DNA of 64,000 nt. Source: Flavisolibacter longurius (GTDB taxonomy: Bacteria; Bacteroidota; Bacteroidia; Chitinophagales; Chitinophagaceae). Of the stretch, positions 36,389-64,000 are shown piece by piece. The number at the start of each line of letters is the position of its first letter. Within the stretch, counting starts at the first letter, position 1. The translations under genes were made by a program, and so were the position numbers. A model generated the notes under the pieces. That model saw nothing but the letters and a program-made list of their open reading frames with translations, did no database searches and was not told the DNA's origin. The stretch spans positions 1-64,000 of the forward strand of contig JACJGO010000022.1 in NCBI GenBank assembly GCA_014163555.1. Direction: 5' to 3'.

Positions 36389-38481
36389 AAAAATTGACCT
36401 CTTCCCTGTTGCTCTGTTACGGCCTGTATGCCGGCCTTCTACAAGCGCAGGAAAAAAGCCTCACCAACACCGCCAAAAGCCCCTACGCCAAACTGCACAG
36501 CGTTGACATGGCCGCCGTGCAATGGACCACCGGCTTCTGGGCCGAACGCTTCCGGGTTTGCCGCGATTCGATGGTGCCCAACCTATGGGCTATCTACAAC
36601 GACGACAACATCAGCCATGCTTTCAAAAACTTTAAGATCGCTGCAGGTCTGGACAGCGGCTCGCACAAAGGCCCTTCCTTTCACGACGGTGATTATTACA
36701 AAACACTGGAAGCTGTGGCGAGTTTGTATGCAATTACCAGAGACAAACGACTGGATGCGGAAATGGACGGCGCCATTGCCGTCATCGGCAAAGGTCAACG
36801 CGATGATGGCTATATCTACACCAAATCCGTCATCGACCAGAAAAAGACCGGCGCTAAAAAACAATTTGAAAGCCGTCTCAGTTTTGAAGCCTACAACATC
36901 GGTCACCTGATGACGGCCGCCGCGGTTCACTACCGGGCAACCGGTAAAAGGAACTTGCTCGACATCGCTATTAAAGCATCCGACTATCTCTACCGCTTTT
37001 ACGATACCGCCAGCGCCGCCACGGCCCGCAATGCCATCTGCCCTTCACACTATATGGGACTGGTGGAAATGTACCGCACAACTGGCGACGACAAATTCAA
37101 AACACTCGCAAAAAAACTCATTGATATTCGCGGGGCCTCCACCGGCTCCGATGACAACTCCGACCGCTATCCTTTCCGCGACATGCCCGAAGTGCAGGGC
37201 CACGCCGTGCGGGCCAATTACCTCTTTGCCGGCGCTGCCGATTTGTATGCAGAGAACGGCGATAAAACCTTGCTAACAACATTGCACCGCATGTGGAACG
37301 ATGTGGTGAACCATAAAATGTACATAACCGGCGGTTGCGGTGCGCTGCATGATGGTGTGTCGAACGACGGCACCTCGTTCAACCCTGCTGACGTGGAAAA
37401 ACTCCACCAGGCATACGGACGCAAATACCAGTTGCCCAACCTCACGGCGCACAACGAAACCTGCGCCAACATTGGCAACGTGCTGTGGAACTGGCGCATG
37501 CTACAGCTCACCGGCGACGCCAAATATGCCGATGTGCTGGAAACCACTTTGTACAACAGTGTTCTCTCCGGCATCTCTCTCGATGGCAAAAAGTTTTTTT
37601 ACACCAATCCCCTTGCATACATCGAAGACCTGCCGTTCAAACAACGTTGGACGAAAGAATCGTACAACACCCTAGCCGAACCGGCGATCCTAGAACAGGT
37701 AGGACCTTTTCCGCAGGGCATGCAGTGGTCGCGGGACCGGCTGGCCTATATTGGCCTTTCCAATTGTTGTCCGCCCAACGTCGTACGCACCCTTGCGCAG
37801 GTTAACAACTACCTCTTTAGTTTGTCCAACGATGGTTTGTGGTTTAACCTTTATGGAAGCAACGAGCTGTCCACGAAGTGGAAGGACGCAACGGTCCGCA
37901 TCAAGCAGGAAACCGCCTATCCCTGGGACGGCAATATAAAGCTCACTGTCCAAGAAGCACCCACGTCCCTTTCGCTCTTCCTGCGCATTCCTTCCTGGGC
38001 GGCTGGTGCCAAGATCCTGGTCAACGGTAAGCCTTCCGGCATTACTGCCACCGCAGGCAGCTATGCAGCTGTTAAACGTGCATGGAAGTCCGGCGATGTG
38101 GTGAGCCTGCAGCTGCCCATGGAAGCAAAGCTGATGGAAGCCAACCCGCTGGTAGAAGAAACCCGTGCACAGGTGGCGGTGAAGCGTGGGCCAATTGTTT
38201 ACTGCCTTGAATCAGCTGACCTTCCTCCTTCGGTAAAGCCGTTTGGTGTGGGCCTGGCGCTGGGCACAAAGTTCACGGCACAACCCATTAAAATTGATGG
38301 CGCGGCCATGGTGAGTTTAACCGGCACTGCTACCGTGCTGAATGATAGGAGCTGGAACGGCCAGTTATACCGCGAAGCAAAAGCGAAGGCGAAAACGGTT
38401 CCCGTTCGGCTGGTACCCTATTTTGCCTGGGCCAACCGGGGCGAAGGAGATATGACCGTGTGGCTGCCGGTGATTAAATGA
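36385..38481 (+). CDS. Secreted GH127-like (DUF1680) beta-L-arabinofuranosidase-type enzyme
   Basis: 698 residues with a signal peptide (LLLCYGLYAGLLQAQ). The (alpha/alpha)6 barrel includes TTGFWAERFRVCRDSMVP, FHDGDYYKTLEA and YITGGCGALHDG. Zn-binding residues of GH127 are present: Glu358 and Cys360 in TAHNETCANIG, Cys461 and Cys462 in SNCCPPNV, with Cys461 at the nucleophile position. Counting 16 residues back from Glu358, the place where I recall the Bifidobacterium enzyme's acid/base Glu322 holds Gln342 (HQAYGRKYQLPN). So the fold and zinc site are sure, but the exact activity is not. Two beta-sandwich domains follow. ATGA overlap with the DUF5703 gene. Confidence 0.88.
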   Translation: MKKLTSSLLLCYGLYAGLLQAQEKSLTNTAKSPYAKLHSVDMAAVQWTTGFWAERFRVCRDSMVPNLWAIYNDDNISHAFKNFKIAAGLDSGSHKGPSFHDGDYYKTLEAVASLYAITRDKRLDAEMDGAIAVIGKGQRDDGYIYTKSVIDQKKTGAKKQFESRLSFEAYNIGHLMTAAAVHYRATGKRNLLDIAIKASDYLYRFYDTASAATARNAICPSHYMGLVEMYRTTGDDKFKTLAKKLIDIRGASTGSDDNSDRYPFRDMPEVQGHAVRANYLFAGAADLYAENGDKTLLTTLHRMWNDVVNHKMYITGGCGALHDGVSNDGTSFNPADVEKLHQAYGRKYQLPNLTAHNETCANIGNVLWNWRMLQLTGDAKYADVLETTLYNSVLSGISLDGKKFFYTNPLAYIEDLPFKQRWTKESYNTLAEPAILEQVGPFPQGMQWSRDRLAYIGLSNCCPPNVVRTLAQVNNYLFSLSNDGLWFNLYGSNELSTKWKDATVRIKQETAYPWDGNIKLTVQEAPTSLSLFLRIPSWAAGAKILVNGKPSGITATAGSYAAVKRAWKSGDVVSLQLPMEAKLMEANPLVEETRAQVAVKRGPIVYCLESADLPPSVKPFGVGLALGTKFTAQPIKIDGAAMVSLTGTATVLNDRSWNGQLYREAKAKAKTVPVRLVPYFAWANRGEGDMTVWLPVIK

Positions 38482-41952: not shown

Positions 41953-44900
41953 TTAGTTTATTACCTCTACCCTCACCGGCCCTAAAAGCCCCGCCGGCAA
42001 TAAAGGCTTTCCTTCCATCTTAAATGGGTAAACCGTGCTGCTGATGCGCTTCTCCAACGGCTGCCGTGCATCGCCAATCATCCGGTTGGCCCAGGTGTTC
42101 ACTACTTCAATCTTCAATTCATTTCTGCCCCCTTTCAATGCTTTCGAAATATCAATGCGGTAAGGCGCTATCCAAACCGTCCCGTAGGAGATGCCATTCA
42201 CAAACACTTCCGCCATGTTTGCCACGTTGCCTAAATGGAGGTAAACGGCTTTTGCTTTTCCTATCTTCTTCCAGCTAAATGTTTTGCGGTAAACAGCCGT
42301 GCCTGAATAATAACGGATGGCTGTGTCTTGGTGCTGGCTCCAATCCTGCAAAGCGGTAAATACCACCTCGCCTTTCGGTCCGCCAAGTGAAGAGTCAAAG
42401 CTTACCTTCCAGTCGCCATTCAAGGTTTGCACCTGCGTTGTGGTTATCCAATTGGTTCCCTTCTTCTCTCCTTTTCCAGCCGCAGTTTTCTGCAGCACCA
42501 CAAACAGCGAACCGCTGCCTTCCAACCGTACCGGCAGCACCGTTCGGCCACCTTCTACCTTCCAGTTTTTTACCTGCAGAATGCTTCCGGTCACCGCATC
42601 CCACAATTCTGGCTGCTTCCCAGTCAACCGTAACGAAAGCGTCAACTCTTTTGCACGGGCGGCTTGGTTGGAAACAAAATAAATATCAAAGCCTTTTCCT
42701 GCACGATGCGTCCAAGCAAGGCTGTCGGCTCTTTCGCCTTTTTCATCAGTCGCCAAAAAATCAGGTGCAATACCTAAACCGGCTAACGATTGTTTTTCAA
42801 ATGGCCCGGTGAGAATCTTTCCTTTTCCAATGCCTTGAGCTGAAGAATTAGAACGAACACCGGCGAAGATCTTTTGGAGCTCACTCCTATCATCTTTCAA
42901 TCCCAATGGCCTCCTGCCATCATTCGCCAGGAGAACCGTTGCACCTTCTTTCGCTAGGGCAAGAATTTTTTTTGCTGCTTCCGATGACAACGAACCGCTA
43001 TCCGGCAACAGCTTGTGCATATCCGGCACCACAAGGATTTTGTATTTCGCCCCGGTACTTAAGGAAATTTCTTTTCCCTTCACCGACGATAAATTCAGCA
43101 ACGCGTCAGGGTTAAATGAATCATAGGCATAGCCTCTTAACGGATCAGTCCACGATTGTGCATCCGTTGTATTGCCAACATAGGTAACACCATTCTCCGG
43201 CTTGCGGGTTGGCTGTCCTGCATTGCGCAGTCGGGCAGCTTCCCTTTCCACTGCTTCCTTGCCAAACAGCCCCGGAAGCGTTGGCACCAAACGCTCCGGC
43301 AAGAGTGACCGCCGCGGCAATTCTTCACCAGTGAAGACAGCAATATCCGTAACAGGTTTACCCAATTGTAACAGGGCCTGGCAACGCTTCACATAGGCAG
43401 TGAAAGCGTCCACTTTCGGCCACCAGGTTTGGTCGCGTTGAAACAACAAGCCAATGGCATCCAATGTGATACCCGGCTTTTTAGCCAGCCAAGGGTTGTG
43501 CATGAACACATGAAACACCATCCGGTTTATGCCCAGTGCAAAATTCCGGTCGAGCAAGGCTTTTAAATTGCCGGGATGCTCGTCAAACGCCATGCGCAAT
43601 TGCGTAAACGCTTCCGCCTGCACAATGTTCTTTCCATACACGTGGGCACCACTGATGGCATCCAGCATGTCGTTGGGTTTGTCATGCGTTGGACTGCGCA
43701 GCCAGAACTCTCCCATCGGGTAATCTACTTTCGAATAGTGCAGCATGCCATCACTCATCATCGTTGGCGCCACGCTTTCGGCTACAAACTTCACTCCCTC
43801 TTTCTTCGTTAAGTCACGCAGCGTCCCAAAAAAATTATCGTGGAAGAGTTCAGCAATCGTCTTTCGTACATCATATAAAAATCCTTCCGACACCTGGTTG
43901 CTTTCCACCGGAATTCCCCCCATCACTGGCAGGTAAGGGTACAGGTCATAACCTCTCCGCTTCTTAAATTCTTCTCTAAAGTTCTGCGACCAGTTTTGGC
44001 TGCCGCACTCCCAGCTATCAATATGAAACAGCTTGACGATTTCTTCTGCGGTGGCGCCGCCCTGCCGCATCAGTTCACCAAACCAGCTATTGAACTGCAG
44101 CGTTACAGCATCCTTGCTAAACTTGTCGCACTCCAATCCTTTTCCGCCACCAGCCGTTTCGTTTTTATGTCCGGTAGATGTATGGCCAATGCGAATGATC
44201 GTCCAGTCTCCGGCGGGTACAATCCAGTTCAGCTTACCATTAGCATCAAGGTATTTCGTAATGTCAATGATTTCTTTCTTTGGCACGAACAAACCGGGTT
44301 GGTTTTGTTCCTCCGTTGTACGTTTAGCAAGCCGCCACACTTCGCCATTCTTTCCTTCATACTGGTGAATGCGTGGTTCCGATGAAAGTTCGATGCCGGT
44401 GATCTTTAAAACAGGTCGCCACTTGGCGGCATCCAGGTCTTCGGCTCCCGGCTCAGCGCCTTCTTTCGTATAAATGAATCGAAAATGTTTGGCAGTGATT
44501 TCCGGAATGGCATGCGTGTAATCGCTGTCCCAGTCTTGCCAGCCAACTCTTGGCGATTCTAACCGTGTATGACGTGTAAAAGATTTTCCATCGTTGCTCC
44601 ATTCAACAATCAGCCGGTTCGACACGTAATTGATTCGGCTCCTGATCACAAGGGAACGCAGTGTAAACGGCTGTTCGAAACTGTACTGAATCCAGCATGA
44701 ATCTTCTGAGACAAAATTTTTTGTGTTGGCTGGATTTGTTAGGAAGGATGCGTCTGCACCTGAATTGGTGGTAACGACAGGTTTTGTTGTCGCCGTAGAA
44801 ACGCCGGTTCCTTTTAACGACGGAAACGCAAAGACCGCAACATCGCGATAATAATTTTCCAACGTTTCCGGCTGCGCCAGCGTATCATTAAAAGCTTTTC

Positions 44901-45339
44901 CGCCCTTCACATAGGTTTGCGTCCAAACCAGTTTTTGCATGGAGGCCTCGGGCTTTATCCATGGGCCACCAGCCAGTGCAAAACCATCGCTGATATGCAG
45001 TGCCAGTTTTACATCATACCGTTTGGCCTCCGCCATCGCATGTTTGATCATCGTCCACCAAAGCGGCGTGAGTTGCCGGGCTACCGGTTGGTAGATAGAG
45101 GGCTTCGTAGTGTCTTTTACCGTCATCAGGTAAGCGCCGCCGATGCCGCCTGCCTTCATGGCTTTGATGTCGGCCGTGATGCCTTCTTTGGAGATGGCGC
45201 CGTGCATCCAGTACCAGATCACCCAGGGCTTTGCATCTTCCGTAGGTTTTGTCCAGACATTCTTTGGGACCTGCGCATAAAGTAATACCGAAGAAAGGCT
45301 CAGCAAACAAACCAGCAAAATACCCCGCAACCCCCTCAT
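41953..45339 (-). CDS. Secreted GH106-type alpha-L-rhamnosidase
   Basis: 1128 residues with a signal peptide (GILLVCLLSLSSVLLYAQ). The GH106 barrel shows WVIWYWMHGAISKEGITADI, MKAGGIGGAYLMTV, VKLALHISDGFALAGGPW, and later LFHIDSWECGSQNWSQNF with an acidic pair. YVIWYW-type starts and the C-terminal galactose-binding-like domain (YRKTFSWKKIGKAKAVYLHL, VFVNGISYGTVWIAPYRID) match family members that remove L-rhamnose from rhamnogalacturonan. Rhamnose release is the best guess, though sequence-divergent members have other substrates. Its ATG overlaps the stop of the FucP-type symporter gene (ATGA), so the sugar released and its transporter are coexpressed. Confidence 0.88.
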   Translation of the reverse strand: MRGLRGILLVCLLSLSSVLLYAQVPKNVWTKPTEDAKPWVIWYWMHGAISKEGITADIKAMKAGGIGGAYLMTVKDTTKPSIYQPVARQLTPLWWTMIKHAMAEAKRYDVKLALHISDGFALAGGPWIKPEASMQKLVWTQTYVKGGKAFNDTLAQPETLENYYRDVAVFAFPSLKGTGVSTATTKPVVTTNSGADASFLTNPANTKNFVSEDSCWIQYSFEQPFTLRSLVIRSRINYVSNRLIVEWSNDGKSFTRHTRLESPRVGWQDWDSDYTHAIPEITAKHFRFIYTKEGAEPGAEDLDAAKWRPVLKITGIELSSEPRIHQYEGKNGEVWRLAKRTTEEQNQPGLFVPKKEIIDITKYLDANGKLNWIVPAGDWTIIRIGHTSTGHKNETAGGGKGLECDKFSKDAVTLQFNSWFGELMRQGGATAEEIVKLFHIDSWECGSQNWSQNFREEFKKRRGYDLYPYLPVMGGIPVESNQVSEGFLYDVRKTIAELFHDNFFGTLRDLTKKEGVKFVAESVAPTMMSDGMLHYSKVDYPMGEFWLRSPTHDKPNDMLDAISGAHVYGKNIVQAEAFTQLRMAFDEHPGNLKALLDRNFALGINRMVFHVFMHNPWLAKKPGITLDAIGLLFQRDQTWWPKVDAFTAYVKRCQALLQLGKPVTDIAVFTGEELPRRSLLPERLVPTLPGLFGKEAVEREAARLRNAGQPTRKPENGVTYVGNTTDAQSWTDPLRGYAYDSFNPDALLNLSSVKGKEISLSTGAKYKILVVPDMHKLLPDSGSLSSEAAKKILALAKEGATVLLANDGRRPLGLKDDRSELQKIFAGVRSNSSAQGIGKGKILTGPFEKQSLAGLGIAPDFLATDEKGERADSLAWTHRAGKGFDIYFVSNQAARAKELTLSLRLTGKQPELWDAVTGSILQVKNWKVEGGRTVLPVRLEGSGSLFVVLQKTAAGKGEKKGTNWITTTQVQTLNGDWKVSFDSSLGGPKGEVVFTALQDWSQHQDTAIRYYSGTAVYRKTFSWKKIGKAKAVYLHLGNVANMAEVFVNGISYGTVWIAPYRIDISKALKGGRNELKIEVVNTWANRMIGDARQPLEKRISSTVYPFKMEGKPLLPAGLLGPVRVEVIN

Positions 45340-46646
45340 GCCACCGCCCGGTTTTTAATTTTAAAACCACTGATGGCGAAGTAGAGAATCACAATATAAC
45401 ATATCGCGGGAATGTAATAACCGGTTTGAATATTGTCGTTGTTCATGTCAATGATTGACCCCATGATGTAAGGAAAAATGGCGCCACCTACAATCGACAT
45501 TACCAGCAGCGAAGATCCAATCTTGGTGTCCTTTCCCAGGCCTTCAATACCCAATCCGAAGATGGTTGGAAACATGATGGACATAAAGAAACCCAGTGCA
45601 CTTAGGGCATACACCACGTATTTGCCATCGCTGTAAATGGCGATCAAGCTTAGCACAACGGAAATGAGTGCGTAAATAGCAAGCAGTCGTGCAGCCGGGA
45701 AAAACTTCAGTAAAAATGTTCCCGCAAAACGACCAACCATAAACAGCAAGCCGTAAATACCCAGGGCCTTTGCCGCATCGATTTCTTCAATGCCACCGCC
45801 CTGCTTGGCCATGCGGATAAAAAAGCTGGTAACGCAGACTTGCGCCCCTACATAAAAGAATTGGGCAATCACCGCCCAGGTCAGGTGACGGTATTGAAAG
45901 GCTCTTCCAAAATCAGCCGGTTTCACCACCTTCGTATCGTCTTTCATTTCCGGCAGTTTCACAAACCAAAACAAACCAGCAACCAGCAACAACACGCCTC
46001 CTAAAATAGTATAAGGCATTTTTACCGAGGCGGCTTCACCTGCCAGGTAGGCAGCCCGTTCGGCTTCGGGCATGGCCGTGAGCTGCTCCGGTGTGTATTC
46101 CACGCCGGAAAGAATAAACAGGGCGCCAATAAACGGCGCAATGAAAGCTGCCAACCCGTTAAAGGAGGCTGCCAGGTTCAGGCGGAAGTTGGCAGATTTC
46201 GGATCACCCAGTATCGCCGCATACGGGTTTGCGGCCGTTTCCAAAATGGTCAGTCCACAACCAATGATAAACAGGGCTAAAAGGAAAACACCAAAGCTTA
46301 ATGAATTGGCAGCTGGCACAAACAAAAACGCACCAACGGCAAACAGGAGCAGCCCCGTGATAATGCCGCTTTTGTAGCCCCATTTTTTCAGGAACAGGCC
46401 GGCCGGAATGGCCATCAGGAAATACGCAAGAAAGACAGCCGTGTCGATCAGCGTACTCTGGGCATTGCTTAACTGGCAGGCCTTTTTTAAATGCGGAATC
46501 AGAATAGAGTCAAGATTATGCGCCATGCCCCACAAAAAGAAAAGGCTGGTCACCAAAATAAACGGAACAACATAATTTGTCTTGCTCCCTTTCTGGTAAG
46601 CGGTTGTTGTGGGTTGTGCAATGGATTCGACCGGGATTTGTGGCAT
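45336..46646 (-). CDS. FucP-type sugar:H+ symporter (MFS)
   Basis: 436 residues, twelve membrane helices. FFLWGMAHNLDSILIPHL, MAIPAGLFLKKWGYKSGII and ILETAANPYAAILGDP are classic for the FucP subgroup of the MFS, where a membrane-embedded Asp and Glu drive sugar/proton symport. The insert after helix 6 (GVEYTPEQLTAMPEAE) is usual in Bacteroidota members. FucP-like proteins carry L-fucose, L-galactose, arabinose or glucose; here a rhamnosidase lies directly downstream (4-bp overlap), so a 6-deoxyhexose is likely but not proved. It is 93 bp downstream of the MaoC gene. Confidence 0.9.
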   Translation of the reverse strand: MPQIPVESIAQPTTTAYQKGSKTNYVVPFILVTSLFFLWGMAHNLDSILIPHLKKACQLSNAQSTLIDTAVFLAYFLMAIPAGLFLKKWGYKSGIITGLLLFAVGAFLFVPAANSLSFGVFLLALFIIGCGLTILETAANPYAAILGDPKSANFRLNLAASFNGLAAFIAPFIGALFILSGVEYTPEQLTAMPEAERAAYLAGEAASVKMPYTILGGVLLLVAGLFWFVKLPEMKDDTKVVKPADFGRAFQYRHLTWAVIAQFFYVGAQVCVTSFFIRMAKQGGGIEEIDAAKALGIYGLLFMVGRFAGTFLLKFFPAARLLAIYALISVVLSLIAIYSDGKYVVYALSALGFFMSIMFPTIFGLGIEGLGKDTKIGSSLLVMSIVGGAIFPYIMGSIIDMNNDNIQTGYYIPAICYIVILYFAISGFKIKNRAVA

Positions 46647-46739: not shown

Positions 46740-47192
46740 TTACCCCTGGTGGGATTTCCGTTTGGCCATGAGCAGGTGATCACAGGCCAGCACCACTTCA
46801 CCCCGTTGGTTGATCACTTCCACATGCTCCGTCACCGTGCCGAACGCCGGCTTTTTTGCATCGCCTTTGGCGGAGATGGTAATTTCACTGTGAAGGGTAT
46901 CACCAATGTGCACAGGCTTTACAAAGCGCAAGGTGTCATACCCTCTGGAAAACGCCTCCGGATTGATCTCCGACGCCGTTAAACCAATGCCGATGCTGAA
47001 CACCATGGTGCCATGTGCAATGCGCTTTTGAAAGGGTTGTGTTTTGCACCATTCTTCATCCATGTGGTGCGGGAAAAAATCACCGGTATGCCCGGCATGC
47101 ACCACGAAATCCGTTTCGGTGATGGTTCTTCCCAGGGTCACCCGCTTGTCGCCGACTTGATAATCTTCAAAAAAAATGGACTTGAAATACAT
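46740..47192 (-). CDS. MaoC-family (R)-enoyl-CoA hydratase-like protein
   Basis: 150 residues, a single hot-dog domain. [19 protein letters not shown] carries the hydratase Asp-x-x-x-x-His pair, and [15 protein letters not shown] is the second signature. MaoC dehydratases add or remove water from enoyl-CoA thioesters, and some act on mesaconyl- or methylmalyl-like CoA. It sits between a Gfo/Idh oxidoreductase (8-bp gap) and the FucP-type symporter. A CoA-thioester enzyme inside a sugar operon is unusual, and it matches the CoA-transferases of the neighbouring block. Confidence 0.9.
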
Positions 47193-47200
47193 AACTGATT

Positions 47201-48286
47201 TTATCGCTTTTCTGCTAATGGGTAATCTGGTTGAACGCCGCCTTCATCACTTGACCTGTACGCGGCTTCTACGACCAGCATGGTTTTAAAAACATCTTCC
47301 ACGCTTGTCGGAATAACGGGTGAAGAGCCTTCCTTGTACCGCATCAGGCTTCCCATTGTGCCAATAAAGGCATCGGGAAACCAGGTGCCTTGAATCTCTT
47401 TTGTCTGCCATGCCCCTGCTTTGCCGGACCCATCTTTCAGGCAATATTCAAACGTATCGGGTACGCCGTGCGGATAATCCATCAGCAGTCCCATTTTGGC
47501 AATCACTACGCCTTTTGTTCCTTCCCATTTGATAAAACTTTCCTGGTGGTCCGGACCAAAATCATGATCATGGTTGGTGTTGATGACGGTATGCATCGTA
47601 TTACCGTATTCTAAAATGGTTGTTGTTCTCGACGAAGACAGCTCCTTTGCCGGGTGCCGCAAGGTTTTGGAATAAACCGAGGACGGATCCCCTAAAAACG
47701 AACGAATGAGATCGATGTAATGAATACTGTGGTATTGAATCTCCAACCGCGGATGCACCATCACATGCGGAAAAAGATGCCACGGCGTTTCAACCGTTAC
47801 TCTTACCTCCATGTCGTACATCTCTCCCAGCAATCCTTCGGCAATCATTTTTCTTGCTTCCTGTACATAGGGCGCAAAACGCAACTGGCAATTGATGGCA
47901 GCAGCCAATTTCTTTCTTCTGCAAACGTCTAGTATCTCACGGGTTTGCTGAATGTTGTCACCCATGGGTTTCTGAATCAACACCGCTGCACCATCCGGCA
48001 ACTGCTCGAGTGTTGGCACAAATTGCTCCGGCATAATGGTGATATCGTAAACGGCATTTGCAGGCGCAGCTGCTACCGCTTCCTGTACCGTATTAAAGAC
48101 ATGCGGAATGTTCCATGCAGCGGCAAGCGTTTCAGCCCTGCTTTTCGTTCGGTTGGTGATACCAAAAACGGTAAAACCCGCCTTTTTATATGCCGGCAAG
48201 TGGGCATCGTGCACAATGCCACCGGCGCCAATGATAACAATCGGCTGGTCTGTTTCCGGTAAGAAAGGTTTGTATGGAATCGTCAT
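47201..48286 (-). CDS. Gfo/Idh/MocA-family oxidoreductase
   Basis: 361 residues from ATG 48286; a TTG 9 bases upstream would add three residues. The Rossmann fold opens [20 protein letters not shown], then [19 protein letters not shown] has the catalytic-type Lys-Pro, and [19 protein letters not shown] lies in the C-terminal substrate domain. Such enzymes oxidise sugars or inositols to lactones or ketones with NAD(P). It is the first gene of a four-gene block (Gfo/Idh, MaoC, FucP, GH106) read away from the AraC gene. The substrate may be the sugar released by GH106. It has no Tat or Sec signal, so it works in the cytoplasm. Confidence 0.9.
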
Positions 48287-48532
48287 ATTCGTCAAGCTTC
48301 GTTTTTCAACCCTCTTTTGGTTGTTCCTGCCTATTGTTTGAAATGTTGGTCGTCATCAGTGATTGGCAACCAGGTTATCTTTTCGTTGGGTCTTTGTATT
48401 TACCCGTGTTTTGCTTTTGCAGGCTTTCACAGGTTCGCCCAATGACCATTTTCGTACGAATCAACAAATTACCGTGATTTCCTTTTTCATCCCGTTGCAT
48501 TTTTTCTAATTTACGCACCTAAGTATTGCTGC
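48287..48532. promoter_or_regulatory. Divergent control region between Gfo/Idh block and araC-type gene
   Basis: This 246-bp region must hold promoters for both directions and probably AraC sites. No perfect TAnnTTTG box is visible. Near-misses are TAATTTAC before the regulator and TAATTTG-like ACAAATTA on the other strand near 48463. Confidence 0.35.
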
Positions 48533-49438
48533 ATGAACACAATCCCCAAAGAAGGCTCCATTAAAAACGTATGGCACGGAACCGGACGGCAACGAATCGA
48601 AATTCCAAAAGCCGTATTAAAAGCACAGGTGTTAAACAACAAGCTGTTGCAATCCCTTTATATCGGAAGCCTGGGGTATTACCCGCAAGCAAGGGGACAT
48701 TACACCTATCGGAAAAAAGGACTGCCGGAAAATTTCATCTTTTATTGCGTGGATGGTCAAGGATGGTACAAAATAGGAAACGAGCGGTATGAAATCGGTC
48801 CCAATGAATTTTTTATTCTGCCACAAAACGTGGAGCATGCTTATGGAAGCGATGAAGCGCGGCCCTGGAGCATTTACTGGATTCATTTCGGCGGCACTTC
48901 CTTACCCGACTTTAACAACATGCAGGTTGTCAGGGACCATTTCAAACCGGCACACATCAAAGCCAGTGATACCATCATTGCCCTTTTCAACAAAATCTAC
49001 CAGACCCTGGAAACGGGTTACAGTATCGACAACCTTTGTTTCTCCAATCTTTGCCTCAGCCATTTTTTAACCTTGTTCCTTTACAATGCAAAGCATTTTG
49101 AAGCAAGCGTGGTGAAAAATGATATCATCAGCGAAGCTATCTGCTATATGCAGGACAATATCAACATCAACATTACCCTGCAGGATCTTTGCAGTCATTT
49201 TCACTATTCGCCTTCCCGTTTTTCCAGCCTGTTTAAACAACGAACGGGTTATTCACCCATCGATTATTTTATTCAGTTGAAAATGCAAAAAGCAAGTCAG
49301 CTGCTAGATTTCACCGACCAATCCATCAAAGACATTGCCTACACGTTTGGCTTTGACGACCCGTATTATTTTTCAAGGCGGTTCCGCAATACCATCGGTG
49401 TGTCGCCAAAAAAATACAGGTCGATCAAAAAAGATTAA
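48533..49438 (+). CDS. AraC-family transcriptional regulator
   Basis: 301 residues. The N-terminal cupin domain has FIFYCVDGQGWYKIGNERY and NEFFILPQNVEHAYGSDE, as in AraC-type sugar sensors. Two HTH motifs follow at ~200-298: LCSHFHYSPSRFSSLFKQRT and IAYTFGFDDPYYFSRRFR with the signature NTIGVSPKKYR. It would bind a small molecule, probably a sugar, and activate nearby promoters. It is divergent from the Gfo/Idh-MaoC-FucP-GH106 block and converges with the amidohydrolase of the CoA-transferase block, so both are likely targets. Confidence 0.92.
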   Translation: MNTIPKEGSIKNVWHGTGRQRIEIPKAVLKAQVLNNKLLQSLYIGSLGYYPQARGHYTYRKKGLPENFIFYCVDGQGWYKIGNERYEIGPNEFFILPQNVEHAYGSDEARPWSIYWIHFGGTSLPDFNNMQVVRDHFKPAHIKASDTIIALFNKIYQTLETGYSIDNLCFSNLCLSHFLTLFLYNAKHFEASVVKNDIISEAICYMQDNININITLQDLCSHFHYSPSRFSSLFKQRTGYSPIDYFIQLKMQKASQLLDFTDQSIKDIAYTFGFDDPYYFSRRFRNTIGVSPKKYRSIKKD

Positions 49439-49487: not shown

Positions 49488-50339
49488 TTAGAGGTTGTAA
49501 AACTTCACGGCATTCTTTGCATAAACCTTTTCCTGTTGTTCCTTATCCAACAGGGCTTCCAGTACACTTTGGTAGGTGACCCAGGTTTTGGTATAGCTGC
49601 CCGCCAACAGGGATACTGGCCAGTCGCCACCGCAAAAACAGCGTTCCGTACCGAAATGCTCCAGTGCAAAGGCGACATAAGGCTCTATATCAGCAGCTGT
49701 CCAATCCTTTTTTTTCGTCGTGGTTCCTAAGCCGGAAATTTTTGCATGAAAGGCCGGATTGGCGGCGGCTTCCTGCATCAGGCTTCCCCAGCGACCAAAG
49801 CGTTCACCGCTTGCAATGGGTGGTTGATTCAGGTGATCAAAAACCATCCTTAGTCCGGGAACTTTTTCTGCAACCGTTAACACCGTTTCAATATGCTTGG
49901 GCAACACGCCTACCACATCAAATGGCAGTGCATACGAAGCCAGTATCTTCAGGCTTTCGATGACGGATTCCTGCAACAGCCATTGCGGGTCGGCTTCATC
50001 ATGAATCAAGTGCCGGATTCCTTTGAAATAACGGTTTCGGCTATACGTTTCCGCTAGTTTTCTTTCCGTTTCTTCCGGTTGCTGCAGGGGCAGCCATCCC
50101 ACCACACCGGATACGATTTCCTTCTTTTCAGCAACTTCCAGCATCCAATCGGTGTCTTCCAGATTGTTGGCGGATTGAACCAATACGACTTCGATGACAC
50201 CTGCCTTTTTTTGTTCCTCCTCTACTTCCTCAAGGTGAAACGTTCTGTTCAGTAAAGAGGTATCGCCTTTCAGCCAAGGGTAGTCAGCTTTTTCAAAGTT
50301 CCAGACATGTAAATGGGTATCGATCATACGGGTTGCCAT
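49488..50339 (-). CDS. Amidohydrolase-2 family lactonase-like enzyme
   Basis: 283 residues without a signal peptide. IDTHLHVWNFEKADYPWL opens the TIM barrel with the metal His-x-His, and GWLPLQQPEETERKL, RMVFDHLNQPP and CGGDWPVSLLAGSY supply the remaining ligands and catalytic Asp. This is the COG3618 type, whose known members hydrolyse L-fuconolactone, L-rhamnonolactone or related sugar lactones. A lactonase next to Gfo/Idh dehydrogenases fits an oxidative sugar route. Its ATG follows the stop of the first CoA-transferase by 2 bp, so it closes the four-gene minus-strand operon. Confidence 0.88.
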   Translation of the reverse strand: MATRMIDTHLHVWNFEKADYPWLKGDTSLLNRTFHLEEVEEEQKKAGVIEVVLVQSANNLEDTDWMLEVAEKKEIVSGVVGWLPLQQPEETERKLAETYSRNRYFKGIRHLIHDEADPQWLLQESVIESLKILASYALPFDVVGVLPKHIETVLTVAEKVPGLRMVFDHLNQPPIASGERFGRWGSLMQEAAANPAFHAKISGLGTTTKKKDWTAADIEPYVAFALEHFGTERCFCGGDWPVSLLAGSYTKTWVTYQSVLEALLDKEQQEKVYAKNAVKFYNL

Positions 50340-50341
50340 GG

Positions 50342-51511
50342 CTACAAATCGCTTTTATAATCTTCTGCAGATGCTAAAAATTCTTCTTCAATCTTTTGAT
50401 TGTGTTCTCCCAATTTGGGCGCACCACGATAAGAAAGCAGCAACCGGCCATCCACACGAATGGGACAACGGGTGGTTGTGATTTGCAGTCCACTGCTGGT
50501 GCTTACCGTTACTTCCATGTCCAATACCTGATAGCCATCCTCCAGAACCAGTTCATCATAATTCAGCACTTTGGCACACCAGATATCGGCCGGCTCTAAA
50601 ATACGTAACCAATCCTTTGTTGCTCTTGTTTTTAAATGATCAACCAATACCCGTTTGATCTCATCCCGCCTTCCGAACCACTCTTTTTTATCCGGAAACG
50701 CTTTCAGCGCAGGGCAATCCAGCAAATCAGACAGCACCAGGATATCGCCCATGGCAAGGGCCAGGAAACCGTCGGAAGTCTCGTAGATGCCATACGGTGC
50801 CGCAATATAGGCATGGCCGTTATTGACAGCACTCCGCACCGGCAATTCGTTGCCATCGTTGTAAAAACAGGTCAGTACTTCAAACTGGAAATCAAGGATG
50901 CTCTCCAGCATGTTTACTTGTACCAAAGCGCCTTCCCCGGTCACCGCTGTCTGGTATAAAGCGGCTAAGATTCCCTGTGCCAGGTGGGTGCCGGCCATGA
51001 TATCGGCTACGGCTACTCCCATAGGCGTAGGTTGCCTATGATTGTCATTGCTTAACCAGGCAAGCCCGGAGACCGATTGCAGCAAAAGATCCTGCCCGGG
51101 CAGATCTTTCCAAGGACCTTCCGTGCCATAGCCACTGATCTCTGCATATACAATGGAGGGGTTAATGTGCTTGACTGTTTCATAGTCCAGCCCCAGGCGT
51201 TCCATCACACCCGGCCGGTAATTGTGCAGCAATACATCCGCTTCTTTCAACAACTCTTTCACCAGTTGTAAATCATTCTCCTCTTTCAGGTCTGCCGCAA
51301 AACTTTCCTTGTTGCGGTTGATGGCATGAAAGATCGTGGATTCGCCTTCCACCACCACATCGGATACATAGAGTTCACGACAAATATCACCGCTGCCCCT
51401 TCTTTCCACTTTAATCACCCTCGCTCCCATATCCGCCAGCCGCAAACCCGCCGAAGGGCCCGAAAGGAACTGGCTAAAGTCAATCACCACGATGTCGTCC
51501 AATAAATTCAT
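50342..51511 (-). CDS. CaiB/BaiF family III CoA-transferase, copy 1
   Basis: 389 residues. [20 protein letters not shown] and [14 protein letters not shown] are class III signatures, and [16 protein letters not shown] places the catalytic Asp at 170, the position expected from formyl-CoA transferase (Asp169). [18 protein letters not shown] follows the family pattern. The enzyme moves CoA between organic acids through an aspartyl-CoA intermediate. It is closely related to the next gene (about half of the residues identical by eye), and its ATG overlaps that gene's stop by 4 bp. Donor and acceptor are unknown. Confidence 0.92.
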
Positions 51512-52656
51512 TGTACTGCGTTAAGAAGTTCAGCTTTTATGTGTTGCGTGTGCTCGCCTAAGCCGGGTGCTTTTTTGGAAGAAAACAACCGTTCACCATT
51601 GATCCGTATCGGGCAGCGGGTGGTTGTAATTGTTTTTCCCGCCAGGGTTATCTCTTGTTCCATTTGGAGTACACGATAAGCCTCCAGTTCCTGTAACTCT
51701 TTCCAGTTCAGCACCGGCATGGCCCAGATATCATTTTGTTGTAAGGCGGCAAGCCAGGCAGCCGTTGATTTGTTCTTTAAAAAACGAACCAAGATGGCTT
51801 TGATCTCATCCCGATTGCGAAACGCTTCTTCCTGTTCGAACCGGTATAATGGCGGGCAATCAATGGCGGCCGCCAGTTTAGCCAAGGGGGTCATGGCAAT
51901 GGCCAGGTAACCATCGGCCGTTTCATAAATGCCATAAGGCGCACTTAGCAGGGAATGCCCGTTGCTTACCTGGCTGCGTTGGGGAGGCTGGCCGCTGGTG
52001 TAATAGGTGGTTAACAGTTCAAACTGGAAGTCCAGCAATGATTCCAGCAGGCTTACTTCGATTAGGGCACCGACCCCTTTTTTATGCCGGCGGATCAAGG
52101 CTGCCAGGATGCCCTGCACCAGGTGGGCGCCACACAAAATATCTGCTATGGCGATGCCAAACGGGACGGGATTGTCTTCTTCGTTTCCCGATGTGTACAC
52201 CAAACCTGACAAAGATTGTAAGAGCAGGTCCTGACCCGGCTTTCCTTTCCAGGGTCCTTCCTTTCCATAACCGGTTATTTCGGCATAGATGATTTTTGGA
52301 TTCAAAGCAGAAACCGAGGCATAGTCCAGCCCTGCTTTTTCCATTACACCCGGACGAAAATTATGGGTCACCACATCTGCTTCCGCTATCAGCCGCTTTA
52401 CCCAGGCCAAGTCTTCCGGATTCTTCAGGTCCGCGGCAAAACTTTCCTTGTTGCGGTTGATCGTATGAAAAAGTAGGCTGCTGTCATCAGCCCATAGATT
52501 TTTAATGGCCAACTGCCGGCAGGCGTCGCCCCCTTTGGGTCTTTCAATTTTAATGACCCTTGCGCCAAGGTCGGCCAGCCGTAGACCCGCCGAGGGACCT
52601 GACAGGTATTGACTGAACTCCAGGACCTTTACCCCTTTCAACGGTAAGTGATTCAT
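51508..52656 (-). CDS. CaiB/BaiF family III CoA-transferase, copy 2
   Basis: 382 residues. Signatures run parallel to copy 1: [35 protein letters not shown], and [16 protein letters not shown] with the catalytic Asp172. [18 protein letters not shown] is shared too. Class III enzymes are interlocked dimers, so two coexpressed paralogues may form a heterodimer or act on two substrates in sequence. Both copies keep the active-site Asp, so neither is an obvious dead partner. Its ATG overlaps the stop of the solute-binding-protein-like gene by 4 bp. Confidence 0.92.
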
Positions 52657-53822
52657 AGCGCCACCCTCCTCTTTGCTGTTTGTAGCGACTCCTGGTAAAT
52701 GCGATTCAGCTCACTCAATACGTTTGCTGGTTTGCCACCATGCCATAAGTAACGACGAATGGGATTGCCAGCATGATCCTGGAAATGCAGGTAACCGTTG
52801 TACCGCGGACGGATATAACCATTTTGCATGGCTGGTAGCACGTTCGTAAAATAATTGTTGCAGAGACGATTGGCTTCCGCTTCTTTCCATGCGGTCAGGT
52901 GGCCAGGCTGTCCACCATGCTGCACGTAAAAGGTGCGCTGGCATTCGGGAGACACCACTTCCTTCGCAAATCGCAGGGCCCATTCTTTGTGCTTACTAAA
53001 AGCCGATACAGCAAGCCCGGTGCCGCCGATCGTGGTCCGTAATCGTTTATCCTGAAAAGATACGACGTCAGTGTAGTGTAAAAGATTTTTGGCATAGCCC
53101 CTGCGGGCATAGTTGGAATATCCATAGGCAAACGGGCAATACCAGAAGTGATCTTCTTTTGACATGATCTCCGCCACAGCAATTGGGTTGTAACTGAACA
53201 TTCGTTTATCCACCAGTGAATACAACGCCTCCATCGTCTCCAACGCCTGCAAGCCGGTATTCGGATTAATCACTTCTTCCTCCGACTGAAACGGTTCTTT
53301 GCCATGGGCGATACAAAACGTGTAAAAGTTCATCAGCAGGTCAATCGGGATGGCCGGTACGGCCACTTTCCCTTTTCGTGCCAATGCCAATACATCCTCC
53401 CAGTTTTCAGGGACAGGAACCGCGTGTTTCTGGAGCAAGTCAGCCCGGTAACTGGCTACTGGTGTTGCCGCATCAATGGCCAGTGCCCATTGGTGATTGT
53501 TGTAGCAATAACTCTGGTGCGAACCGCCAACCGAATGCTTCAACTGGTCCTCCATGTAATTGGCAGGCAGGTGTTTTTCCAACGGCAGCACACAGTCCGT
53601 TGCGGCAGCACAACCCACCCAGGGATGATCAATGATCAGGAGATCATATTCTCTTGTCAGGTACTCGATAGGATAGTCCGCAAACTCCTGCAGGGTTCTT
53701 TTTTTCCACTGCACGTCCACGCCTGGATGCAGCTCTGAAAATCGTTGTGCGTACGCCAGTAATGGTGTGATACCACGGCTGTGCCCCCATGTAATTCCTT
53801 TTAAAATGATTTTTTCCTTCAT
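52653..53822 (-). CDS. Solute-binding-protein-fold protein without signal peptide
   Basis: 389 residues from ATG 53822 (a GTG one codon earlier is possible). The sequence begins [20 protein letters not shown] and goes straight into the first strand of an MalE-like family 1 solute-binding fold: [54 protein letters not shown] and [20 protein letters not shown] are typical. There is no Sec signal or lipobox, no start further upstream supplies one, and no ABC permease or ATPase gene is in the window. It therefore looks cytoplasmic. It is the first gene of the operon with two CoA-transferases (4-bp overlap) and a lactonase, suggesting a role in binding or sensing their substrate. Confidence 0.85.
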
Positions 53823-54154
53823 CACAAAATAATGGGTTGCATTAAAGTGTATTGCTGCAGTGGAAGAATCTGCGTGTGCTGGCGACTTTCATATACAGGC
53901 AAAAATTCCGAAGCGACTTCCGTACTGACGCTTTTTAACTGTATTAAAAGTAGTTACACGGGTGCCGGGCTACAATGGCATCTTTTCGCAAAAAGATGGA
54001 TAATCTTACCAACCCAGCAGCTGCTCCCTGAGATAACGACATCCCTCCTGCTTGGATTCTTCAAACAGGCGGTTTTACCAGATGCAGTATCAGGAACAAG
54101 ATGTTGATCTGTATGCAACTATTTTCAGCTGCACGATCCGGCTGGCGGAAGCTC
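53823..54154. other. Intergenic gap upstream of the SBP/CoA-transferase operon
   Basis: This 332-bp gap lies between two minus-strand genes and should hold the operon promoter. A TTATTTTG stretch right before the ATG is a poor -7 box. The only clear structure is the hairpin at 53979-53998. Confidence 0.4.
53979..53998. terminator. Hairpin between GH2 gene and SBP/CoA-transferase operon
   Basis: CATCTTTT-CGCA-AAAAGATG is a perfect 8-bp stem with a 4-nt loop. There is no T-tract, so it may be a weak terminator of the GH2 transcript or a leader structure of the operon. Confidence 0.35.
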
Positions 54155-59900: not shown

Positions 59901-61478
59901 TCAATGTCCGTTAAAAATGATGTAAAGGGTAAGAATAACAAGGCCGAGCACTGCAAACAAGATTTTTACTTTTTTGGACGTAACCGGAATGGCGGCTGTT
60001 TCGGCATTGTTCCGCTGAGGTGTGCTGTCAGTTAACGAAAGCAGTACAGCCGCCACCAGGAGGATGGCAAAAATGTAAAACGACAGGAGTAAAAAATGCG
60101 GCCATTGCGGGTAGGCATCGGCGGGAAAAACCCACAGGTACAAAATGCCCACGAACAGGCTGAAGGCAGAACCAAAACTCAGGATGCCATTGACGGCTTT
60201 GCGGGTGGTGCCTTTCCAGAATACGCTCAGGAGAAAAACAACAGAAAGGGAAGGCGCCAGAAAACCGAGTACCGCCTGGAAAATGTTGAACAGATTTTGC
60301 CCACGAATGTTGTCAATGGCAATGGCCATGAGCACAGCGAAGATGGCGCCAATCACAATGGACATTCGCCCGATTTTAATTTGTTGTTCTATTGTGGCAG
60401 CCGGGTTGATGTTTTTTACATACACATCGGTGGTAAAAACGGTGCTCAATGCATTCAGCGAGGAGCCGATGGTGGCGACCAAAACGGCGATCAAAACACA
60501 AATCACCAGCCCGTTCATACCCGGTGGAAAAAGATTGGTGACCATGGTCATGTAGGCCAGGTCCGAATTTTCGAGTTGCGGGAACAGCGCAAAACACAGG
60601 ATGCCGGGCAGGATAAACAGCGGGAGGGCCAGCACTTTCAGCCAGCCAATGAAATTAACCCCGAGCTGCCCCTGTTCTAAATTTTTAGCACCCAACACAC
60701 TTTGTACCATGGCCTGATCGGTGCAAAAAAAAGCAACCGCCGCAACCGGGTAGCCCAGCAACATGGCCTGCCAGGGATAATTGGCATCATCGGATGGTTG
60801 TATAAGGTTCCAGTAATTGGCCGGAACTTTGTCGTAGAGGGCCGACAGACCGCCTACCCGCTCCAAACCCAGATAGGAAAGCAGTAAGGAGACGACGATC
60901 AGCAGGATCATTTGAAACACATTCACTTTGGCAATGGCCCGCAATCCGCCCGCAAAGGTGAACACACCGGCAAAGAGCACCAGCATGATCACCGATTGCC
61001 ACATGGGAATGCCCAGGATCTGCCGCACCAGCACACCACCACTAAAAAGTCCCAGTGACAACCAACTTACCAGGATTTTTATAAGGGCATACCAGGCCAA
61101 TATATTCCGTGTACTGTCGCCATAACGTTTGCCCATGTACTCGGGCATGGTCGCTACTTTGCTGGCCAGGTAACGGGGTGCAAAAACAGTAGCCAGCAGC
61201 AACAGGAAAACAAAAGCATACCATTCAAAATTGCCGGCGACAATACCCGTTGCATAGCCGATGCTGGCAAAGGCAAGCAGGGAGGAAGGACCTACATTGG
61301 TACCCCACATGTTGAAGCCGATGTTGTACCAGTTCAGCGAATGGCTGGCCAGAAACAGCGTTTCGTTTCGCTTTTTTTGTTTGACGCTGGCAATGTAACC
61401 GATCACCAGCAACACAACCAGATAAACCCCTACGATGGCGAAATCCAGTTTGGTCAGCTTGTCGTAGATCGGGTTCAT
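59901..61478 (-). CDS. SSS-family sodium:sugar symporter
   Basis: 525 residues, about 14 membrane helices. ASHSLNWYNIGFNMWGTNVG, GGLRAIAKVNVFQMILLI and ATIGSSLNALSTVFTTDVYV (the Na+-site segment of SGLT-like transporters) mark the family. Members carry sugars, myo-inositol or sialic acid with Na+. Placed between a Gfo/Idh gene (4-bp ATGA overlap) and the GH78 rhamnosidase, it most likely takes up the sugar set free by GH78/GH2, possibly L-rhamnose. The substrate is inferred from context only. Confidence 0.92.
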   Translation of the reverse strand: MNPIYDKLTKLDFAIVGVYLVVLLVIGYIASVKQKKRNETLFLASHSLNWYNIGFNMWGTNVGPSSLLAFASIGYATGIVAGNFEWYAFVFLLLLATVFAPRYLASKVATMPEYMGKRYGDSTRNILAWYALIKILVSWLSLGLFSGGVLVRQILGIPMWQSVIMLVLFAGVFTFAGGLRAIAKVNVFQMILLIVVSLLLSYLGLERVGGLSALYDKVPANYWNLIQPSDDANYPWQAMLLGYPVAAVAFFCTDQAMVQSVLGAKNLEQGQLGVNFIGWLKVLALPLFILPGILCFALFPQLENSDLAYMTMVTNLFPPGMNGLVICVLIAVLVATIGSSLNALSTVFTTDVYVKNINPAATIEQQIKIGRMSIVIGAIFAVLMAIAIDNIRGQNLFNIFQAVLGFLAPSLSVVFLLSVFWKGTTRKAVNGILSFGSAFSLFVGILYLWVFPADAYPQWPHFLLLSFYIFAILLVAAVLLSLTDSTPQRNNAETAAIPVTSKKVKILFAVLGLVILTLYIIFNGH

Positions 61479-62555: not shown

Positions 62556-64000
62556 TTAATTCGCTGCCAGCTTTTGCAGAAAAATCCATGTCTCACCCGG
62601 CTTGGTTCCTTCAAGGCCCTCCTGGTATTTTTTCATGATGCGGTTCCACTCTTCCACTCTCGGGTTGTTCTCGGTTGTTTTCGGATTAAGATTATCCAAA
62701 CTTTCTCCTTTGGGAATACTGATCACCAACATGAGTTGCCGGCCATTCCGGTACAACAGTAATTGCTGAAAGTCGGCCTTGCAAAATCCCTTGGAAACTT
62801 CCGGCCATTGCTGAAATTGGGAGGCATGATAGCGCATGTATTCCTGCTGAAGCCTTGGATCAGCAACCAGGTTGGCGGTTAACAGAATGTGCTGCCGTTC
62901 GGTTGTCGTGGCTGTGTTTTCGCAACGCTGCCGGTTAAACTCATAAAAGGCATCGTAGTAAACTTTTACCTGCGCATCGGGGAATTGATCCTGTAATTTT
63001 CCACGCAACACGGACACATCCTGAACTTTATCAAATATCACGTACCGGTTTTGCCAGTGGTAAATGGCTGCTGTATCAACCTTGTATTGCAGCAAAATAG
63101 TTTTCAATCTGGCGAGATCCAACGCGTTTTTTTGTGTGACCAGTTCGACGATTACAGGCTGTTCGTGCACAATACCCCAGGTTGGATACAGGACCTCACG
63201 GTACTTCAGCAGGTGCCGGAACGCGGGTTGCAATCCCGCCGCCGCTTTTATGTTTTCACTAACGGCGGGACCGTTGTTGGTCCATACGTTGCCGGGCCCA
63301 TTGGCATTTTGCAGGAATTTTTGCGAAGGTGTCCAGTTGTCCTTTACCGTTATATGCGATGAACCTTCATCGGTATAGAGATAAAACCAGTGACTTGGCA
63401 GGTGCGCATACGGTGCTTTGTAAGCACTGTCAATAGCATTCCCGCTGATCTCCGTTCCCGGTTGTGCACTGAGGGTGTAGATGCCGGCAACGTCGTACAA
63501 CTGCCGGGCAAAGCGATGAATTTTGTTGCCCATCACTTTGTTTGCTTTCATTACGTTCGGTGTCGGGCTCCAACCCCACCCCAGGGAAATTCCCATGTAA
63601 GGAAGTTCGGAAATATCGTTGTGAGCAATGGTGCTGTTGCGGAGGTAACCGCCACCGATGCCCACGCATCCCCAGTCTTCGTTGCCCACATCATTCACCA
63701 GGTTATTGGTGATGTTAATGTTGCTGCTCACCTCCCGCTCGTCTTTGGGATTGTAGGGCAGGTGCACTTCAGAAGCTTCGTCGGAAAAGTGACCGGCAAG
63801 AATCGCCGTCCCGCCTACATCTTTAAACAGGTTGCCCTTGATGCCGGCATCCTGAACGCCTTTGCCAAGATCAAGCCCCGTTGCTGCCAGGTGTTCAAAC
63901 CGGCAACCGTCAATGTTTATATTGTTAGCAAATGCAATGTTTACCGCAGCCGCCGGACGGCCCACCCAGGCCTGGTTTTCCAGCGTTTGTTTGTCGGCGG
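62556..64000 (-). CDS. Parallel beta-helix protein fused to L-rhamnose-mutarotase-like domain, 5' end outside window
   Basis: At least 481 codons; the frame stays open to the window edge (upstream residues read ADKQTLENQAW), so the start is missing. Residues up to ~280 of the visible part are a right-handed parallel beta-helix with NosD/pectate-lyase-like repeats (INIDGCRFEHLAATGLDLG, NITNNLVNDVGNEDWGCVG, ISGNAIDSAYKAPYAHLP). A first ferredoxin-like segment follows (VIVELVTQKNALDLARLKTI). The last ~100 residues match RhaM/DUF718: EEYxRYH-type start EYMRYHASQFQQWPEVSKGF, LMLVISIPKGESLDNLNP and NNPRVEEWNRIMKKYQEG. RhaM interconverts alpha and beta L-rhamnose. It heads the Gfo/Idh-SSS-GH78-GH2 series. 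Confidence 0.85.
   Translation of the reverse strand, partial: ADKQTLENQAWVGRPAAAVNIAFANNINIDGCRFEHLAATGLDLGKGVQDAGIKGNLFKDVGGTAILAGHFSDEASEVHLPYNPKDEREVSSNINITNNLVNDVGNEDWGCVGIGGGYLRNSTIAHNDISELPYMGISLGWGWSPTPNVMKANKVMGNKIHRFARQLYDVAGIYTLSAQPGTEISGNAIDSAYKAPYAHLPSHWFYLYTDEGSSHITVKDNWTPSQKFLQNANGPGNVWTNNGPAVSENIKAAAGLQPAFRHLLKYREVLYPTWGIVHEQPVIVELVTQKNALDLARLKTILLQYKVDTAAIYHWQNRYVIFDKVQDVSVLRGKLQDQFPDAQVKVYYDAFYEFNRQRCENTATTTERQHILLTANLVADPRLQQEYMRYHASQFQQWPEVSKGFCKADFQQLLLYRNGRQLMLVISIPKGESLDNLNPKTTENNPRVEEWNRIMKKYQEGLEGTKPGETWIFLQKLAAN

Follow-up and report, generated by a model that had tools for sequence, protein, structure and literature searches.

We examine a 64,000-nucleotide stretch of the Flavisolibacter longurius genome (contig JACJGO010000022.1, positions 1-64,000; hereafter the window) together with homologous loci from other bacteria. 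The focus is a four-gene block on the minus strand, 49488-53822(-), in which a MalE-type solute-binding protein (SBP) that lacks an export signal is encoded with two class III coenzyme A (CoA)-transferases of the CaiB type and an amidohydrolase. Our main proposal, for which we see the case as evenly balanced, is that the cytoplasmic MalE-fold SBP and the class III CoA-transferase make up one functional module, with the SBP as the ligand-binding partner. The observed basis of this proposal is the fold of the SBP, the missing export signal, the gene order, the co-occurrence of the two proteins in two genome samples, their correlated divergence and an enzyme-like level of constraint. The observation is far more general than the four-gene block by itself suggested: the loci come from four phyla, Bacteroidota, Bacillota, Pseudomonadota and Actinomycetota (the last with one locus).

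A MalE-type protein inside the cell

The first-pass annotation of the window had described a signal-less MalE-like SBP, two CaiB proteins with their catalytic aspartates and a lactonase-type gene in tight succession, and the open reading frames (ORFs) and Pfam matches bear this out. The SBP gene, cytSBP1, lies at 52653-53825 (-) (SBP_bac_8, 4.6e-12); we prefer the ATG at 53822 as its start, and a GTG one codon upstream, at 53825, is possible. It is followed by CaiB1 at 51508-52656 (-) (CoA_transf_3, 2.4e-101; Asp172), CaiB2 at 50342-51511 (-) (CoA_transf_3, 3e-95; Asp170) and the amidohydrolase at 49488-50339 (-) (Amidohydro_2, 1.9e-38; PDB 4dlf, 1.2e-27). SBP and CaiB1 overlap by 4 bp, as do CaiB1 and CaiB2, and a gap of 2 bp separates CaiB2 from the amidohydrolase.

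AlphaFold2 (AF2), applied to the SBP as a single chain, gives the two-lobed MalE fold, and Pfam finds no domain in it besides SBP_bac_8. There is no signal peptide on the window protein, in which the first predicted strand is already at residues 5-12; the earliest aligned residues are residue 4 in the SBP model and residue 2 in SmoF chain 7ofy_B. The earlier claim of a cytoplasmic use of the fold is supported: no corrected start in the window adds a signal peptide, and the export signal or lipobox of MalE-type ABC SBPs is missing from nearly all homologues as well as from the window protein. In 63 of 87 homologues no start codon could supply an export sequence, and in 37 the first motif is preceded by a stop no more than 15 codons away; some start codon lies more than 15 codons upstream in the other 24, and in only three (L161 among them, two of the three doubtful) does such a start come with a hydrophobic stretch. 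The 16 annotated members in our set all go under 'extracellular solute-binding protein' or '(carbohydrate) ABC transporter substrate-binding protein', names that are probably wrong on both place and role.

We also looked for a transport partner. The identified genes around the block include no ABC permease or ATPase, and the transporters there are of the FucP-type major facilitator superfamily (MFS) and the SSF family. In the window genome (completeness 99.82) we found two PF00528 permeases, both scoring best with Opp/Dpp/Nik-type models. The permease pair elsewhere that would have spoken against the first-pass annotation did not appear: MalFG-type permeases were not found in the genome, a negative that is not airtight because a parallel PF13416 search with this tool failed to return even cytSBP1. 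An ABC partner located elsewhere in the genome was sought as a candidate, and only the Opp/Dpp/Nik-type permeases turned up. In five plasmid loci a separate SBP adjoins MalFG-type permease genes, so that the cytoplasmic SBP is there additional to a transport SBP.

We can now judge the idea that cytSBP1 works in the periplasm as a normal ABC binding protein, with a misread start or a permease encoded elsewhere. The Pfam assignment to SBP_bac_8 agrees with it, as do the 24 upstream starts, of which that of L161 precedes a hydrophobic stretch; but the 37 early stops, the 63 genes without a start further upstream, the kind of permease found in the window genome and the separate MalFG-linked SBPs on plasmids make it hardly credible. 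On the evidence of the upstream starts and stops, we reject a transport SBP with a misread start in the window and in almost every homologue.

Linkage of the SBP to CaiB and shared constraint

How firmly is this protein tied to the CoA-transferases? In a sample of 395 genomes of the phylum, the SBP occurs in 19, spread over nine genera, and CaiB at E<=1e-60 occurs in 20, namely the same 19 carriers (two each) and one non-carrier, G337, with a single, weaker match. Among 245 genomes of the Paenibacillaceae, the family of Cohnella phaseoli, the SBP occurs in 19, each of which also has a CaiB at E<=5e-63; in the 226 non-carriers no CaiB reaches 1e-60, and 16 have a weaker one. The two samples confirm the tie far outside close relatives, and so does gene order: a CaiB gene on the same strand is present in the fetched stretch in 83/85 loci, within 2 kb in 79 and within 100 bp of the matched ends in 72. 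With starts chosen mechanically, SBP and CaiB overlap by 4 bp in 34 of 65 loci and do so in either gene order, with SBP-CaiB in 24 loci (Bacteroidota and Ponticoccus L057) and CaiB-SBP in ten (other Pseudomonadota and Streptomyces L061). The gene order of the block, SBP-CaiB-CaiB-lactonase, for which the first-pass annotation had proposed a search in other genomes, recurs in another phylum, in 4/22 Paenibacillaceae loci (L162-L165). Four Paenibacillaceae genomes have two SBP loci, each SBP with its own CaiB; there the SBP copies are 39-49% identical and the CaiB copies 32-37%. On Sinorhizobium plasmids (S. meliloti, S. medicae) the CaiB-SBP pair stands alone amid unrelated genes; L048, L052 and L064 represent this minimal two-gene unit, and conjugation genes lie near L064.

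The loci behind these counts were gathered as follows. The 20 plasmid loci were picked by genus and type, not at random, from 149 matching records; the weakest listed matches (about 23% identity, H99 and H100), among which ordinary transport SBPs are possible, were left unfetched. L046 and L047, which have broken frames, and L157-L160, which are not cytSBP1 loci, are excluded from the residue counts and from the linkage and distance analysis, and L178, with a partial CaiB, from the constraint comparison. L055 is recorded as Roseateles, an organism assignment flagged as unverified.

Both CoA-transferases of the window are full length, with the full CoA_transf_3 domain and the active-site Asp, and are 56% identical to each other. 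CaiB2 Asp170 aligns opposite the Asp of 4hl6 (YfdE), 9br6 (SUGCT), 4ed9 and 10uh, and neither protein reaches the cut-off of any listed NCBIfam model. Searches with PF02515 gave no third class III CoA-transferase in the window genome or in the eight carriers covered (G033, G150, G269, G170, G316, G182, G107 and G286). The first-pass annotation had gone further and proposed a two-subunit CoA-transferase, which is not general, because single CoA-transferases occur: most Alphaproteobacterial loci have one adjacent CaiB, and 6/19 Paenibacillaceae carriers have only one CaiB match at E<=1e-25 in the whole genome. That earlier interpretation is partly supported, in that its main idea was right, its mechanism is still a proposal and its treatment of the tandem CoA-transferase as essential was wrong.

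The two proteins also diverge together. Distances between SBPs correlate with those between their nearest CaiB proteins (Mantel r 0.82, 0/2000 permutations as high, n=83), a correlation to which shared descent contributes. In 82 full-length pairs, columns at least 97% identical number 43 of 367 well-filled ones in the SBP vs 39 of 377 in CaiB, with mean identities of 45% and 48%, and the catalytic Asp is retained in 82/82 CaiB. We read this comparison of the SBP with CaiB as the constraint that an enzyme or an obligatory interface would show. In a tree, a branch with support 100/99 separates the cytoplasmic SBPs (29 rows) from the periplasmic ones encoded at these loci, and the stem of the family is long, at 5.54 changes per column; the tree is rooted at its midpoint, and the program warns of long branches meeting.

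Inspection of the putative cleft reveals where some of this constraint lies. D65, D117, Y235 and R338 are invariant in 85/85 sequences and H66 is kept in 84/85; R16 (85/85) and H14 (84/85) are constant too, yet positions 10-17 belonged to the selection pattern. Asp65 lies opposite D70 of the Thermus thermophilus glycoside-binding protein, in a low-scoring stretch (4.3 bits) with which the TMBP alignment agrees. Arg338 lies opposite R356, a residue mutated in ligand structures of that protein according to the structure titles, and we count the retention of this clamp arginine in favor of a ligand-binding partner. The ligand Asp of the same protein, D118 (Ala in the D118A entry 6jai), aligns with Ala119, as does the corresponding Asp of SmoF; position 119 is Ala in 85/85, so that by alignment the canonical cleft Asp is absent, and Asp117, two residues before it, is Asp in 85/85. 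The ligand site looks remodelled, not degenerate. An enzymatic role for the SBP would be nearly as compatible with such an invariant cleft as the delivery or sensing subunit of the earlier interpretation.

Companion genes and a candidate pathway

What surrounds the pair varies. In a table of 86 loci (without L082, which has no match, and with L046 and L047), 52 have MaoC and Gfo, 18 have a crotonase without MaoC or Gfo, six have MaoC alone, six have none of MaoC, Gfo and crotonase, and four have other mixtures. With companions this varied around a constant pair, the unit seems to be SBP-CaiB and not any single pathway. Related loci also hold mutarotase, MR/MLE, SDR and FAH genes, and several of them have IclR or LacI regulators, with AraC in the window. 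In L083 and L085 the order SBP-CaiB-CaiB comes with a crotonase and without MaoC and Gfo, and L083 has an aldehyde dehydrogenase too; L060, on a Methylobacterium nodulans plasmid, has MaoC, a CoA-transferase and the cytoplasmic SBP, followed by an AMP-binding protein. An in-frame MaoC-to-SBP read-through in Niabella loci L038 and L047 was considered as a fusion. We do not count it as one because frameshifts disrupt genes at each of the two loci, and in related loci MaoC and the SBP are encoded by separate genes that mostly overlap; the read-throughs are probably assembly errors.

A second, different SBP follows CaiB2 in 14 Bacteroidota loci (L049 12571-13803; L051 12436-13668; also L072-L081, L084 and L157) and is absent from the window block. 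It starts at the mature-domain position in the 13 loci whose N-termini were seen, and the two members scanned match SBP_bac_1. Its profile scores a median of 101 bits on six periplasmic SBPs vs 8 bits on 83 cytSBP1 proteins, and since it is by these scores nearer to periplasmic SBPs, it is likely to represent a separate recruitment; the tree alone does not show two recruitments, being unrooted, with three one-sided groups that fit any root. Across 89 rows, 35 have only the close form of the lactonase, 14 only the second SBP, none both and 40 neither. This exclusion tracks lineages, and a distant lactonase relative is nearby in 8/14 second-SBP loci.

In the window itself, the four genes described by the first-pass annotation belong to a longer cluster, interrupted by the plus-strand gene of an AraC-type regulator (48533-49438 (+), Pfam) that splits two minus-strand blocks. 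Beyond it lie a Gfo/Idh/MocA oxidoreductase (47201-48295 (-), Pfam) and a MaoC-type hydratase/dehydratase (46740-47192 (-); PDB 4ffu, 3e-64), both conserved neighbors in related loci, then a FucP-type sugar/H+ symporter of the MFS (45336-46646 (-)) and a GH106 alpha-L-rhamnosidase-like protein (41953-45339 (-); PF17132, 1.9e-174). The symporter scores 386 bits with TIGR00885 fucP (cut-off 280.4) and falls under the 427-bit cut-off of a second fucP model. Further genes in the surroundings encode GH2, GH78-like, GH127 and DUF5703 proteins, esterases and the SSF transporter (59901-61478), so that the region probably serves to degrade a plant-type polysaccharide that contains rhamnose. The DUF5703 protein is followed by the GH127 protein at 34046-38478(+), and in the Rufibacter locus L049 a DUF5703 protein lies directly upstream of the SBP. 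The ORF at 62559-63965(-), in which residues 367-464 match L-rhamnose mutarotase and the N-terminal part is weakly beta-helix-like, is possibly an unusual fusion. 4ffu, very close to the window MaoC, is a solved protein named merely 'oxidase', whose function may lie in this pathway. The amidohydrolase, which we take to be of COG3618, scores 153 bits with the NCBIfam L-fucono-1,5-lactonase model, under its 400-bit cut-off; it is probably a sugar lactonase.

These companions support the sugar-acid context that had been proposed for the block and hint at an oxidative pathway for a deoxy sugar in which CoA activation takes part. We infer the physical contact of SBP and CaiB, the identity of the ligand, the order of steps, the substrate and the chemistry, in a scheme that would run as follows. 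GH106/GH78-type enzymes would release the sugar, probably a rhamnose- or fucose-like 6-deoxy sugar, which FucP would import; the Gfo/Idh enzyme would oxidize it, and the amidohydrolase would open the lactone to the sugar acid. CaiB1/CaiB2 would load the acid onto CoA, with the SBP clamping its ligand, most likely the sugar acid, in the two-lobed cleft and acting on or with the CoA-transferase, and MaoC would then dehydrate or hydrate the CoA thioester. The combination of a CoA-transferase with MaoC or a crotonase as CoA hydratase makes it probable that activation of the acid comes first and that it is then dehydrated as the thioester. A sugar-acid dehydratase with an aldolase or diketo-acid hydrolase was not among the identified genes beside the block; the rest of the genome was not searched for them. 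Aceric acid, an idea for the substrate taken from the GH127, GH106 and GH78-like genes, found no support in the open-licence PMC literature and was dropped from the claim.

Alternative roles and comparison with known systems

Several observations weigh against a module in which the SBP is the ligand-binding partner of the CoA-transferase. The sampled genomes are related and near-copies were kept (e.g. L048/L052 and L065/L067), so the counts are inflated and do not represent independent events. No CaiB lies in the fetched stretch of 2/85 loci, L059 (Microvirga) and L082 (genome G286); the CaiB pair of G286 is about 60 kb from L082, beside a different SBP, and in L028 there are 8 kb between SBP and CaiB. 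No CaiB-SBP fusion was noticed, though no systematic search was made. We know of no class III CoA-transferase that requires such an SBP partner. Finally, the cleft does not vary with the companion genes, and every locus may therefore share a ligand that is not one sugar acid. At L059 itself (8998-10167, a Microvirga ossetica plasmid) the SBP overlaps an annotated mannonate dehydratase, and SMP-30 and SDR genes adjoin.

The strongest competitor, a possible account to which we give real though minority weight, makes the SBP-fold protein itself an enzyme acting directly before or after the CoA-transferase, e.g. by dehydratase, lyase or hydrolase chemistry on the acid or its thioester. Other PBP-II folds have become enzymes, such as MqnA/MqnD and prephenate dehydratase. 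The invariant polar residues (D65, D117, Y235 and R338; H66 in all but one), a constraint equal to that of the enzyme partner in the column comparison, A119 in place of the ligand Asp and the stem of 5.54 all fit an enzyme, but no match to a catalytic residue is known, and the protein has retained an ordinary MalE fold and two of the sugar-clamp residues. That the second signal-less SBP and the close lactonase form never occur together (0/89 rows) also counts for an enzyme, but the exclusion is lineage-bound, with few events, and the distant lactonase relative is present in 8/14 of these loci. A role in sensing or buffering the sugar acid in the cytoplasm, regulating the pathway without a catalytic part, would suit a binding-protein fold with no membrane partner found; we consider it improbable, as the loci have regulators of their own (AraC, or IclR or LacI elsewhere), Pfam shows no other domain in the SBP and the link is to CaiB. 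Adjacency might also be merely historical, with SBP and CaiB serving separate steps of one pathway, as Microvirga L059 and G286 L082, with no adjacent CaiB, would allow; but two-gene islands, 4-bp overlaps in both orders and varied companions around the same pair leave this quite improbable.

Taking the ligand-binding module and the enzyme together, we consider plausible, with a confidence somewhat short of even, a wider history. A MalE-type SBP would long ago have been domesticated as an obligatory cytoplasmic part of a class III CoA-transferase system, as a substrate-presenting Venus-flytrap subunit or as a new enzyme. It would have spread over four phyla with several companion sets (MaoC and Gfo/Idh; crotonase and FAH; crotonase and aldehyde dehydrogenase) as a general CoA-thioester route for sugar-acid degradation, with a second cytoplasmic SBP, apparently a separate recruitment, in the same operon of some Bacteroidota. 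If the proposed module proves right, four phyla would possess a CoA-dependent sugar-acid route, and the MalE fold would have gained a new intracellular role.

Reuse of the fold inside the cell has parallels in the periplasmic binding protein class II (PBP-II) folds that turned into cytoplasmic enzymes (MqnA/MqnD, PheA, HisG and HMBS). These belong to other PBP clusters, and to our knowledge none is a MalE-type protein paired with a CoA-transferase. Bug/TctC binding proteins adjoin CaiB genes in Burkholderiales and are a different, secreted SBP family. In the open-licence PMC literature, where the topic is perhaps thinly covered, we found no description of a pairing of CaiB with a solute-binding protein.

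The closest described pathway is the non-phosphorylating L-fucose/L-rhamnose pathway, which in PMC11199699 runs through mutarotase, 1-dehydrogenase, lactonase and dehydratase, then an aldolase or a dehydrogenase and hydrolase. The likeness lies in the lactonase-like protein and FucP of the window and in the mutarotase, MR/MLE, SDR and FAH genes of related loci; the mutarotase, oxidoreductase and lactonase genes of related loci would give a sugar acid, as in that pathway (PMC11199699). The difference is that 'CoA' is absent from PMC11199699 and PMC3870299, whereas here a CoA-transferase and MaoC or crotonase are central. With class III CoA-transferases (formyl-CoA transferase, YfdE, SUGCT and BbsEF) the window proteins share the full CoA_transf_3 domain and the Asp, but they fall under all listed NCBIfam cut-offs and have a companion cytoplasmic SBP. 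Benzylsuccinate CoA-transferase (BbsEF) is listed with two different subunits; here there are two CaiB in 19/19 phylum carriers, and only one match at E<=1e-25 in 6/19 of the Paenibacillaceae. From the MalE-type SBPs SmoF, TMBP and the T. thermophilus alpha-glycoside-binding protein, the window SBP differs in having neither an export signal nor a MalFG partner that we could find, and in carrying Ala119 (85/85) where they have the ligand Asp (D118), with an invariance that is uniform across phyla.

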